From: Actinophytocola sp.
GTDB lineage: Bacteria > Actinomycetota > Actinomycetes > Mycobacteriales > Pseudonocardiaceae
DNA: 64,000 bases
Direction: 5' to 3'
Assembly (NCBI GenBank): GCA_009377395.1
Contig: WHUB01000015.1
Location: 1-64,000, forward strand
Part shown: in pieces, positions 48,525 through 51,781 of the stretch
Layout: each line of letters starts with the position of its first letter
Position numbering within the stretch: the first letter of the stretch is position 1
Notes under the pieces: generated by a model
Database searches by the model: none
What the model was told of the DNA's origin: nothing
What the model saw: only the letters and a program-made list of their open reading frames with translations
Program-made: the position numbers and the translations under genes

Positions 48525-49139
48525 ATGACGGCGGTGCGGCAGCCGCAGCAGGATCGGAGCAGGCAGACGCGGCGACGGCTGCTCGACGCCGCCGTCGCGT
48601 GCTTGACCGAGCTGGGCTGGACGCGCACGACGGTGGTGGTCGTCGCCGAGCGGGCCGGGGTCTCGCGCGGGGCGGCGCAGCACCACTTCCCGACCCGGGA
48701 GGACCTGATCAACGCCGCGGTCAACCACGTCTCCGAGGTGCAGTTGGAGGAGCTGGCCGAGCGGGTGGCCGCGCTGCCGACGGACGAGACGCGGCGGCGC
48801 GCGGTGGTCGAGATGCTGCTCAACCTCTACACCGGGCCGTCGTTCCGGGCGGCGCTGCACCTGTGGGTCGCCGCGGCGACCGATGAGCCGCTCGGCGCGG
48901 TGATCAAGCCGCTGGAGCGGCAGGTCGGCCGGGAGGCGCACCGGATGGCGGTGAAGCTGCTCGACGTGGACGAGTCGGCGCCGGGCGTGCGGGAGACGGT
49001 GCAGGCCACGCTAGACCTGGCGCGCGGGCTGGGGCTGGCGAACCTGCTCAGCGACGACACCGCCCGTCGCGCCCGCATCGTCGCGCAGTGGACGACGATG
49101 CTGGAAGCGGAATTGTCGGTCGCGACGGGGTCGCGGTAG
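48525..49139 (+). CDS. TetR family regulator; 3' end altered by adjacent insertion
   Basis: RRLLDAAVACLTELGWTRTTVVVVAERAGVSRGAAQHHFPTREDLI. Confidence 0.93.
   Translation: MTAVRQPQQDRSRQTRRRLLDAAVACLTELGWTRTTVVVVAERAGVSRGAAQHHFPTREDLINAAVNHVSEVQLEELAERVAALPTDETRRRAVVEMLLNLYTGPSFRAALHLWVAAATDEPLGAVIKPLERQVGREAHRMAVKLLDVDESAPGVRETVQATLDLARGLGLANLLSDDTARRARIVAQWTTMLEAELSVATGSR
49107..49129. repeat. 23-bp direct repeat, left copy (within tetR 3' end)
   Basis: GCGGAATTGTCGGTCGCGACGGG. Confidence 0.95.
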
Positions 49140-49190
49140 CGGGACCCAGATAGACATGCCAGGGGACCGCATGTAAAGTTGACGTATCCC

Positions 49191-49245
49191 CCCAGCCGCT
49201 TCGGTGGCTGGGTGCAAGGCCCCGCTACGGCGGGGCCTTTGCTTT
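49191..49245 (+). terminator. Two cUNCGg-tetraloop hairpins, the second followed by a T-rich tract
   Basis: CCCAGCCGC(UUCG)GUGGCUGGG at 49191-49212; GGCCCCGC(UACG)GCGGGGCC-TTTGCTTT at 49218-49245. Confidence 0.85.
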
Positions 49246-49885
49246 ACCAACCTGCTGGTTTGTGGATGACCCGATTCGCTTCGTCGTAGATCCTGTCCGG
49301 TAACTGGCTCGTCCGCAGCGCGCTCGCCCGAATCTGCTTGAAGAACGTCGGTGAGCATTCCAGCAGCGCACGGCTCCGCTTTCTCGGCGGATGCGGATTG
49401 AGGATTCCCACCACGTAACCGAGGTCGTGGCGGACCACGCGCATCGGCTCCTTGAGGTCGGAGTCATTGCTGATCACCACGAAGGCATCCGCGTCGCCCC
49501 TGAACGCGTCGACGAGAAGGTGCGTGGCGAGGTTGACGTCCGAGCCCTTCTCCTCGGTCTTGATCACCTCGACCGTCTTCGGCCCGCCGGGCGTTGGATT
49601 CGCGAGCGGCATGCGCGTGGTCGAGGCAAGGAAGTGGCCGAGATGGACAGTCACCTGCGGCAGCGTCCCCAACGCTCGTAGATAGGCGCTCTGCCGTACC
49701 GGCCCTTGCGGCCGCCCGGCTCGCGCACTCACCTTCGCCGTGAAGTACCGGACCCGCTGGAGCTGGTTCTTCTCCGGCGGAAGCAGGCGACGGCAGAAGC
49801 TGACAAGATCAAGCCACTTGAACGGTGACCCCTTGAGGCATCCGTAGTAGAGGTTGAAGCCTTCGACATAGACGTTCGTGCGCAC
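49244..49885 (-). CDS. NYN-domain (PIN-like) protein
   Basis: VYVEGFNLYYGCLKGSPFKWLDL...EKGSDVNLATHLLVDAFRGDADAFVVISNDSDLKEPMRVV; GTG start at 49885 chosen. Confidence 0.88.
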   Translation of the reverse strand: MRTNVYVEGFNLYYGCLKGSPFKWLDLVSFCRRLLPPEKNQLQRVRYFTAKVSARAGRPQGPVRQSAYLRALGTLPQVTVHLGHFLASTTRMPLANPTPGGPKTVEVIKTEEKGSDVNLATHLLVDAFRGDADAFVVISNDSDLKEPMRVVRHDLGYVVGILNPHPPRKRSRALLECSPTFFKQIRASALRTSQLPDRIYDEANRVIHKPAGW

Positions 49886-49917
49886 GCGCTCAACGTAGAT
49901 GACCGCCCCGACAGTTC

Positions 49918-49940
49918 GCGGAATTGTCGGTCGCGACGGG
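49918..49940. repeat. 23-bp direct repeat, right copy
   Basis: GCGGAATTGTCGGTCGCGACGGG, followed by A TAA. Confidence 0.95.
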
Positions 49941-49951
49941 ATAATCGTGGT

Positions 49952-50276
49952 ATGGCATACGACGAAGACCTCGCGGACCGGATCCGGGAGCTGATAGCGG
50001 CCGACACCGCGATGTCCGAGCAGCGGATGTTCGGCGGCCTGGCCTTCCTCATCGAGGGGAACATGTCGGTGGCCGCCAGCGGTCAGGGTGGGCTGCTCGT
50101 GCGCGTCGATCCGGCGACGGCGAGCGAGCTCGTCGATGGTGATGGGCGGACGGGAGATGCGGGGCTGGCTGAACGTCACCGCCGACGCCGTCCGGTCAGA
50201 TGATCGTCTCGAGGCGTGGGTGACGCGCGGGGCGAGCTACGCGCGGACGCTGCCGGCCAAGCCGAAGCGACGCTGA
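49952..50276 (+). pseudogene. TfoX N-terminal-domain protein, apparently frameshifted
   Basis: Frame 1: MAYDEDLADRIRELIAADTAMSEQRMFGGLAFLIEGNMSVAASGQGGLLVRVDPATASELVD; the continuation MVMGGREMRGWLNVTADAVRSDDRLEAWVTRGASYARTLPAKPKRR is in another frame. Confidence 0.7.
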
Positions 50277-50375
50277 CGGCGCCAACTCGATCGTGCCGCG
50301 CCTATCCCAATTGTCGGTAGAGCGGCGTAAGGTACGGCTTGGCCGATTGTGACGATGACAATGGAGGAGGATGTC

Positions 50376-50789
50376 ATGGCTTCCCGGCTCAACCCATACC
50401 TTGGCTTCAACGGTGACGCGCGTCAGGCGATGGAGTTCTACCGCGACGTGTTCGGCGGCAACCTGACGACGAACACCTTCGGTGAGTTCGGTGCCGCCGC
50501 CGACAGCGGCGAGGCTGACAAGATCATGCACAGCATGCTGGAAACCCCGAGCGGCTTCACCCTCATGGCCTCCGACACCCCGGCGGGCATGCCGTACAGC
50601 ACCGGCGGGAACATCACGGTCAGCGTGAGCGGCGATGACGCGGACGAGATTCGCGGCTACTGGGAGAAGCTGTCCAAGGGCGGCACGGTGACGATGCCGT
50701 TCGAGAAGCAGATGTGGGGCGACGAGTTCGGCATGTGCGTCGACCAGTTCGCCATCGCCTGGATGATCGACGCCGTCGCACAGCAGTAA
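50376..50789 (+). CDS. VOC family protein (PhnB/glyoxalase-like)
   Basis: NPYLGFNGDARQAMEFYRDVFGGNL...; GGAGGAGG upstream of ATG 50376. Confidence 0.9.
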   Translation: MASRLNPYLGFNGDARQAMEFYRDVFGGNLTTNTFGEFGAAADSGEADKIMHSMLETPSGFTLMASDTPAGMPYSTGGNITVSVSGDDADEIRGYWEKLSKGGTVTMPFEKQMWGDEFGMCVDQFAIAWMIDAVAQQ

Positions 50790-50791
50790 CC

Positions 50792-51781
50792 CTAGATCCA
50801 GCCGTTGCGGCAGGCGTAGACGGCGAGCTGGAACCGGTTCACCACTCCGGCGCGGGTGGTGAGGCTTTCCAGGTTCCGTGACAGCGTGCGGCGGCTGATG
50901 CCGAGCAGTTCCGCGATGGCGTGGTCGGTGATGCCGCTCGCCAGCAGCTCGATGATCTTGCGCTCGATCGGTCGCAGCGACGACGGCTCCTTGGTGCCGA
51001 GGTGCATCGGCAGCGCCGCCCGCCAGGAGCTCTCGAACAGCCCGATCAGCGCGTCGAGCAGACTCGACTGCCGGATCAGCAGGCTGGAACGGCTGATCTC
51101 CACCTCGGCGTCGGACAGCGCCACCATCGCCAGCCTGCCGTCGTAGATGCTGAGCTTGACCGGCACGTCCGGCAGCACCCGCGCCTGCTCACCCGCCGCG
51201 ATGCAAGGCTGGATGTTGTCCGCGTAGTAGTCCGGCTGCCGCACCGCGGCCCGCGCGTACACGCAGCGGTAGGCCACGCCGCGCTTGAGGTTCTCCACCT
51301 CGAGGTCGTTCGGGCCGCGCTGGCTGGTGTAGGGCGGCGAGTCGAACCGCAGCACCTCCTTGGTGGCCGCCGACTCCTCGAGCTGCACCCGCTCGGCGAT
51401 GTACGGCGCGGTGACCACCTCGACCAGGTCGTCCGGCGACTGCTGCCACACCGAGCGCCGGAACTGCCGGTAGGCGTTGGTCGCGGCCAGCTCGGCCGCC
51501 CGCAGCTCCGACTCCCGCGCCCGCGCCAGCCGCTGCAGCCCGGTGCTGGGCTCGACCGGGGCGACGGAGTCGACGTCGGTGGTGGCGACGAGTCCCGCCT
51601 TGGTGAGACTGTCGACCGTGCCCTTCGCGTCCGTTTCGGACACGTCGAGGGTTTCGGTGATCTCGCCGTGCGTGGCGGGGCCGGTGCCGAGCAGGAACCG
51701 ATACAACCGGACATCCACGTGGCCGAGCCCCAGCCTGCGCAGATGAACGTCCAGCTGGTCGTCTGACATAGAGATCCTCAC
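50792..51781 (-). CDS. Transcriptional regulator, TrmB-like N-terminus with C-terminal LuxR-type HTH
   Basis: RFLLGTGPATHGEITETLDVSETDAKGTVDSL...; C-terminal LRPIERKIIELLASGITDHAIAELLGISRRTLSRNLESL. Confidence 0.85.
   Translation of the reverse strand: MRISMSDDQLDVHLRRLGLGHVDVRLYRFLLGTGPATHGEITETLDVSETDAKGTVDSLTKAGLVATTDVDSVAPVEPSTGLQRLARARESELRAAELAATNAYRQFRRSVWQQSPDDLVEVVTAPYIAERVQLEESAATKEVLRFDSPPYTSQRGPNDLEVENLKRGVAYRCVYARAAVRQPDYYADNIQPCIAAGEQARVLPDVPVKLSIYDGRLAMVALSDAEVEISRSSLLIRQSSLLDALIGLFESSWRAALPMHLGTKEPSSLRPIERKIIELLASGITDHAIAELLGISRRTLSRNLESLTTRAGVVNRFQLAVYACRNGWI

Follow-up and report, generated by a model that had tools for sequence, protein, structure and literature searches.

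To our knowledge, only a handful of protein families include ribonucleases controlled by RNA. In a review of type III toxin–antitoxin systems, candidates are recognised by the order tandem repeat array, terminator, and toxin gene (PMC5086642), and in C. difficile the protein AbiF is accompanied by the RNA RCd22, which acts in cis and in trans (PMC12373285). The window analysed here, the first 64,000 nucleotides of contig WHUB01000015.1 of an Actinophytocola sp., contains an NYN-domain ribonuclease-like gene adjoining a small structured RNA (Table 1). Across about a dozen phyla, such NYN genes go together with a conserved small RNA, in one of two arrangements. We consider it probable (about 0.58) that the pair is a horizontally moving, type III-like two-part module composed of an NYN RNase (HEC-09) and an RNA of approximately 61 nt that restrains it in trans.

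Table 1. Features of the NYN locus and its surroundings (coordinates of the window).
Feature	Coordinates	Strand	Remarks
tetR-family regulator	48525..49139	+	Pfam TetR_N, E 2.5e-11; host gene left of the insert; first 23-mer in its 3′ end
23-bp direct repeat, left copy	49107..49129	+	in frame in tetR
Small-RNA promoter-like sequence TAGACA-17 nt-TAAAGT	49151..49179	+	5 nt before the RNA start; 9/12 matches, shuffle p 0.005
Two-hairpin small RNA, ~61 nt	49185..49245	+	covariance model R1, 83.1 bits (window sequence itself in the model)
Ribonuclease-like gene with NYN domain (213 aa, GTG start)	49244..49885	-	Pfam PF01936, E 2.4e-8
Putative damage-type promoter for NYN, CTGTCGGGG-8 nt-TACGTT	49892..49914	-	resembles the published consensus
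23-bp direct repeat, right copy	49918..49940	+	includes tfoX promoter-like motif TTGTCGGTC at 49924-49932
tfoX-like gene, broken frame	49952..50276	+	ORFs 49952-50203 and 50088-50276 cover the start and the end of TfoX_N, respectively
VOC/PhnB-like gene	50349..50789	+	family name by inspection; TTGTCGGTA-8 nt-TAAGGT upstream at 50311

The RNA was recognised by comparing the DNA past the NYN stop codon in actinobacterial relatives, which share, on the strand opposite to the gene, a two-hairpin element and a promoter-like sequence aimed at the NYN gene. In the window, the second hairpin and the U-run that follows it form a terminator, and the 3′ end of the RNA touches the NYN stop codon, the two genes being convergent. 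An alignment of 17 copies, with 21 pairs and compensatory changes in 15 of them, was used to build the covariance model R1. When R1 was run on 49 NYN loci gathered by protein similarity alone, 42 had the RNA no more than 55 nt away from the gene, and these loci belong to about a dozen phyla (the labels are MAG-based and may include binning errors, e.g., in row L074, labelled Verrucomicrobiota but grouping with Kribbella). It lay upstream on the same strand in 26 loci, the layout of most other phyla, and downstream and convergent in 16, the layout of the Actinomycetota. Many R1-positive loci were outside the model, with E-values down to 1e-14, and matches distant from an NYN gene were few and weak. 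Most of the loci without an R1 RNA are cut off by a contig edge or by a gene resembling a transposase (L093 and L108), are a duplicate of another locus (L077), or carry a promoter and a two-hairpin RNA of different sequence (L095, L097, L102, and L105, as judged by eye). A second RNA type, composed of a first hairpin and then a G-rich hairpin, is seen in L097, L102, and L105 upstream of a divergent Alphaproteobacteria/Synergistota NYN clade. A separate observation concerns L045–L063, which encode longer NYN proteins in genomes of the same family (about 33% identical); downstream of these genes lie a promoter-like sequence and a short RNA with one hairpin (AUACC-CCCGG...CCGGGUUUUU).

Covariation was evaluated on 66 copies, where 95% of the cells were paired, double changes affected 20 of the 21 pairs, double-change cells numbered 271 vs. 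77 in shuffles, and the signal was lost when the partners were slid; this alignment was fitted to R1, so the figures lean towards the model, and the shuffle tests are inflated by related sequences. Hairpin 1, which lies outside the terminator, showed covariation in all nine of its pairs, while hairpin 2 is also the terminator, a role that by itself would give covariation. The best −35/−10 match ahead of 59 RNA copies scored a mean of 8.6/12 (6.05 in shuffles), and these promoter-like sequences mostly had a 17-nt spacing and ended 5–8 nt before the RNA. In Rfam 15, the best matches of the window RNA fell below the gathering score and ten RNA-bearing loci matched tRNAs only; an Rfam identity was rejected, as the matches to the RNA itself were sub-threshold. 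Among 397 Actinomycetota genomes, R1 (E up to 0.001) was detected in 17 and the NYN family in 20, with 13 genomes bearing both, four the RNA only, and seven the NYN gene only (Fisher p 2e-16); some of the NYN-only genomes had a weaker or AT-rich version of the RNA close by. In a search of 100 relatives, the genome of the window alone yielded a strong RNA. Additionally, R1 matches of 45–63 bits without a nearby NYN gene were observed in L166, L167, L173, and L177 (at about 1501–1560), and these solitary RNAs are perhaps orphan antitoxins.

The window NYN protein matched HEC-09 (PDLC04163), the PADLOC model of a candidate phage-defence family, over its full length (E 4.8e-41, residues 12–223 on profile positions 3–202 of 203), and its relatives matched the same model with similar E-values. 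We take HEC to mean Hma-embedded candidate. This phrase appears in PMC12988326. A match to PHROG 7929, whose function is unassigned there, was also obtained (E 1.7e-62), and no NCBIfam model matched the protein. The AlphaFold2 model had a pLDDT of 95, and the best solved relatives of this predicted structure in Foldseek were VPA0982 and the NYN ribonuclease domain of MARF1. These NYN/PIN-like ribonucleases are alike in fold and in most acidic residues, but they are only 12–18% identical to the window protein, whose family bears a C-terminal extension past the Pfam domain that ends in a nearly invariant P..W. The nearly invariant residues of the family include several Asp, and most of the catalytic acidic residues are kept in the window copy. 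The first catalytic Asp (YVDGFN), present in 48 of 50 aligned proteins, is replaced by Glu (VYVEGFN) in the window copy only (1/50), and the window copy may therefore be impaired, i.e., weakened or inactive.

When compared to its relatives, the locus was variable in gene content. The tetR gene is 93–95% identical in three same-genus genomes and 84% identical in one same-family genome, and the same luxR-type regulator closes the interval in the window and in all compared relatives. The tetR–luxR interval itself (49139–50792 in the window) differs from genome to genome in the genus and family: it holds the NYN, tfoX, and VOC-like genes in the window, genes resembling a racemase and a permease in G001 and G003, and a DUF559-like gene in G002 (names given to the translations by inspection), and it measures only ~35 bp in the same-family genome G030. 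Since the cargo differs and the NYN gene is absent from all three same-genus genomes compared, the NYN segment is, by this comparison, an acquisition, and the interval a variable slot. The earlier claim that a segment entered beside tetR is thus borne out as an acquisition, the three same-genus genomes keeping tetR without NYN. The VOC/PhnB-like gene is part of the variable interval and lies outside the NYN–RNA module. The frame of the tfoX-like gene breaks near 50140, through either a pseudogene or a sequencing error. The NYN gene probably has a leaderless transcript. The sequences upstream of the NYN, tfoX, and VOC genes all resemble the RecA-independent (PafBC) damage promoter, whose consensus is tTGTCRgtg-8-TannnT (PMC5656591); by sequence comparison alone, the fit is good before the VOC gene and fair before NYN, and the spacing is imperfect before tfoX. 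The motif AATTGTCGGT, discussed below, recurs at 50309, upstream of the VOC gene.

The NYN segment is bounded by the exact 23-bp direct repeat GCGGAATTGTCGGTCGCGACGGG, as the first-pass annotation had reported. No third site was found in the window at up to 3 mismatches, two matches occurred in none of 100 shuffles, and at the same tolerance the two window copies are the only ones in the whole genome. The reading frames given for the repeat were also correct: the left copy reads AELSVATG-SR* in the tetR frame, the right copy reads AELSVATG and then TAA in the same frame, and tfoX begins 7 nt past this TAA. The NYN gene is indeed the sole protein gene inside, with no recombinase, but the claim that it is the only gene there overlooked the structured RNA with its own promoter at 49151–49245. 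No tRNA is located between the two copies.

In the model drawn from the first-pass annotation, tetR and tfoX had once been adjacent, and a site-specific, non-autonomous mobile cassette that enters gene 3′ ends had duplicated a 23-bp att-like core. This model would explain why the edges of the segment are an exact repeat, and it gains something from the other NYN loci, as repeats of at least 16 bp flank 3 of 39 of them vs. 4 of 477 control windows (p 0.011, the windows not being fully independent) and a 68-bp duplicate of the hmaB start lies on either side of the NYN–RNA pair in L088 (4733–4800 and 5655–5722), as if the module had entered by duplicating recombination. Nevertheless, we regard it as improbable: repeats are missing from most other loci and, where present, are of other lengths and in other positions, no common terminal sequence was found among the NYN loci, no empty site was found in the genomes compared, and the right copy coincides with the promoter region of tfoX. 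The supposed tetR–tfoX junction was not found in the genus, and tfoX sits elsewhere in the relatives. An att core or integrative element was rejected for lack of a recombinase, tRNA, empty site, or shared ends, and a transposase target-site duplication for lack of a transposase and of terminal inverted repeats at the segment ends.

Both copies of the repeat lie where similar native sequence occurs, since the tetR end of G003 and the tfoX promoter of G001 resemble them. The tetR gene of G003 ends in GCGGAGCTGTCGGCCGCTACGGC, identical to the repeat at 18 of 23 positions, and the bases past it (TCGTAG) resemble the window continuation GTCGCGGTAG after the left copy, with GTCG..TAG akin to the native tetR end; judged by this likeness, the left copy is largely the native tetR 3′ end. 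In G001, where tfoX is located elsewhere in the genome, AATTGTCGGT starts 30 nt before the ATG, the same as in the right copy of the window, which by this match coincides with the tfoX promoter motif. The first-pass annotation had named two findings that would count against an insertion, namely a second 23-mer forming a conserved part of the tfoX promoter and the presence of NYN at this place in all relatives; because of the equal distance to the ATG in G001, the former was found, whereas the relatives lack NYN here. The 23-bp identity points to a recombination event that joined or converted the two sites, and the repeat is best read not as an integrase core but as what is left of an illegitimate junction, around the acquired genes, between the end of tetR and the promoter of tfoX. 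It is also possible, at somewhat less than even odds, that conversion or junction of pre-existing similar sequences (the native tetR end and the tfoX damage-type promoter) produced the identity, which would then be uninformative on how NYN arrived. The G003 and G001 sequences described above favour this explanation; however, it requires short-tract conversion to reach 23/23 identity, and the exact bounding of the NYN–RNA segment by the repeat speaks against it.

Apart from the repeat, several settings point to mobility of the pair. The NYN tree contains sister pairs from different phyla, the RNA position switches about twice on it, and NYN copies are found in prophages and plasmids. The mobile nuclease cassette proposed in the first-pass annotation is supported insofar as the NYN gene was acquired, in line with the cross-phylum pairs and the prophage and plasmid copies, and it missed the RNA, the second half of the pair. 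For example, the NYN–RNA pair is situated near an integrase and a repressor in an M. abscessus prophage, and in L088 it lies between HmaA plus an ATPase on one side and HmaB on the other, in keeping with the HEC name. Relatives of the L083 NYN protein are encoded in 449 plasmid records, the prophage NYN region of L122 had no match in E. coli genomes, and divergent NYN genes with hairpin arrays are carried on small plasmids of 10 of 5,426 E. coli genomes.

The number of RNA units also varies between loci. In Pseudoduganella (L075), two units follow one promoter, and only the second has a strong terminator. On 4.6-kb mobilisable E. coli plasmids, a hairpin array (CCTGTGGCGTGCCGCAGG and variants) is followed by a terminator and then by the NYN gene, the units being 29–33 nt long and near-identical. 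Four units were counted in pRHB40-C03_3 and a Klebsiella plasmid and five in pTW10573_9.3k and P3 of isolate 602, and among L131, L179, L180, and L181 the difference between four and five arose through gain of different units. Distant NYN genes on plasmids of Thiothrix, Xanthomonas, P. aeruginosa, Klebsiella, and Agrobacterium have a hairpin and a terminator directly upstream, and several of these hairpins have CGATTnAGTT in common. The RNAs of the NYN clades that diverge most escaped R1 and were assessed by eye and by single-sequence folding.

By analogy with type III toxin–antitoxin and AbiF-type systems, the RNA would bind the NYN nuclease and restrain it, phage infection or loss of the RNA would release the nuclease, and the released enzyme would cut cellular or phage RNA. 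In this reading, the pair travels horizontally and, in the window, has settled in the variable tetR–luxR slot. We infer that the RNA exerts its effect on the nuclease in trans, restraint being its likeliest role. Against the module reading are the single-copy, convergent RNA of the window, a protein that does not have the ToxN fold, the Glu of the window copy, and the four genomes with the RNA only.

Two other roles for the RNA were weighed. It could be a working part of the nuclease, i.e., a guide, activator, or scaffold instead of an inhibitor, within a protein–RNA effector whose targets for cleavage would be specific phage or cellular RNAs. Most loci have a single RNA for each protein, its shape is conserved across phyla together with part of the sequence and persists in both arrangements, and HEC-09 is listed as a candidate defence family, all of which would suit such a role; we nonetheless consider it unlikely, as the RNA is nearly all paired and offers no variable guide-like stretch and the array units of the E. 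coli plasmids are near-identical, like those of antitoxin arrays. Alternatively, the RNA could do no more than adjust NYN expression in cis, as a leader, attenuator, or terminator, a role suggested by its position just 5′ of NYN, on the same strand and ending in a terminator, in most phyla. In Actinomycetota, however, it cannot be a leader because it is downstream and convergent with its own promoter-like sequence, a contradiction for which the leader or attenuator role was rejected, and the covariation of hairpin 1 reaches beyond the terminator. Overall, tuning in cis appears less likely still than a working part. The restraining RNA of a two-part module remains our preferred reading.

At even odds, in our estimate, the HEC-09/NYN proteins of about a dozen phyla constitute a superfamily, so far undescribed, of toxins or defence effectors under RNA control. 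Every clade would have a hairpin RNA of its own that co-evolves with it, in single, tandem, or arrayed form, and this RNA would be the missing half of what is listed as a single-gene defence candidate. If true, a large new group of RNA-controlled ribonucleases would be added, spanning a dozen-odd phyla, small E. coli/Klebsiella plasmids, prophages, and an Hma locus; the HEC-09 defence candidate would gain its missing partner, and there would be a reason why the protein could fail in tests when used alone. The HEC-09 entry of the PADLOC library is a protein model, and no description of an RNA part of HEC-09 was found in the literature searched. Likewise, no description of an NYN protein with an RNA antitoxin was found in the literature searched, whose coverage left out preprints and most subscription papers, and the RNA partner of this nuclease appears to be undescribed so far.

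Regarding the known RNA-paired systems, AbiF/RCd22 (PMC12373285) is similar in consisting of one phage-borne protein gene and an adjacent ncRNA with its own promoter and terminator, but its protein belongs to a different family (Abi_2), the RNAs having been compared through the Rfam scan alone. The type III toxin–antitoxin systems ToxIN, CptIN, and TenpIN (PMC5086642) share with the NYN loci a ribonuclease-type gene and a small structured RNA. In contrast to their ToxN/AbiQ toxin, the protein here has an NYN fold; their antitoxins are tandem repeats of about 34–50 nt, whereas one RNA unit is usual here and the window has a single one; and their RNA is a pseudoknot that neutralises the toxin. 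The RNA here was modelled as two nested hairpins with covariation, in which no pseudoknot was seen. The type III RNA is also located upstream, in contrast to the downstream, convergent RNA of the Actinomycetota. The order of array, terminator, and gene is present in the non-actinobacterial and plasmid loci and absent in the window, whose RNA converges with the NYN gene. Most NYN relatives follow the type III plan of a promoter, an RNA of one to five units, a terminator, and the gene, and they further resemble type III systems in their occurrence on plasmids and in prophages and in the differing number of units among E. coli plasmids.
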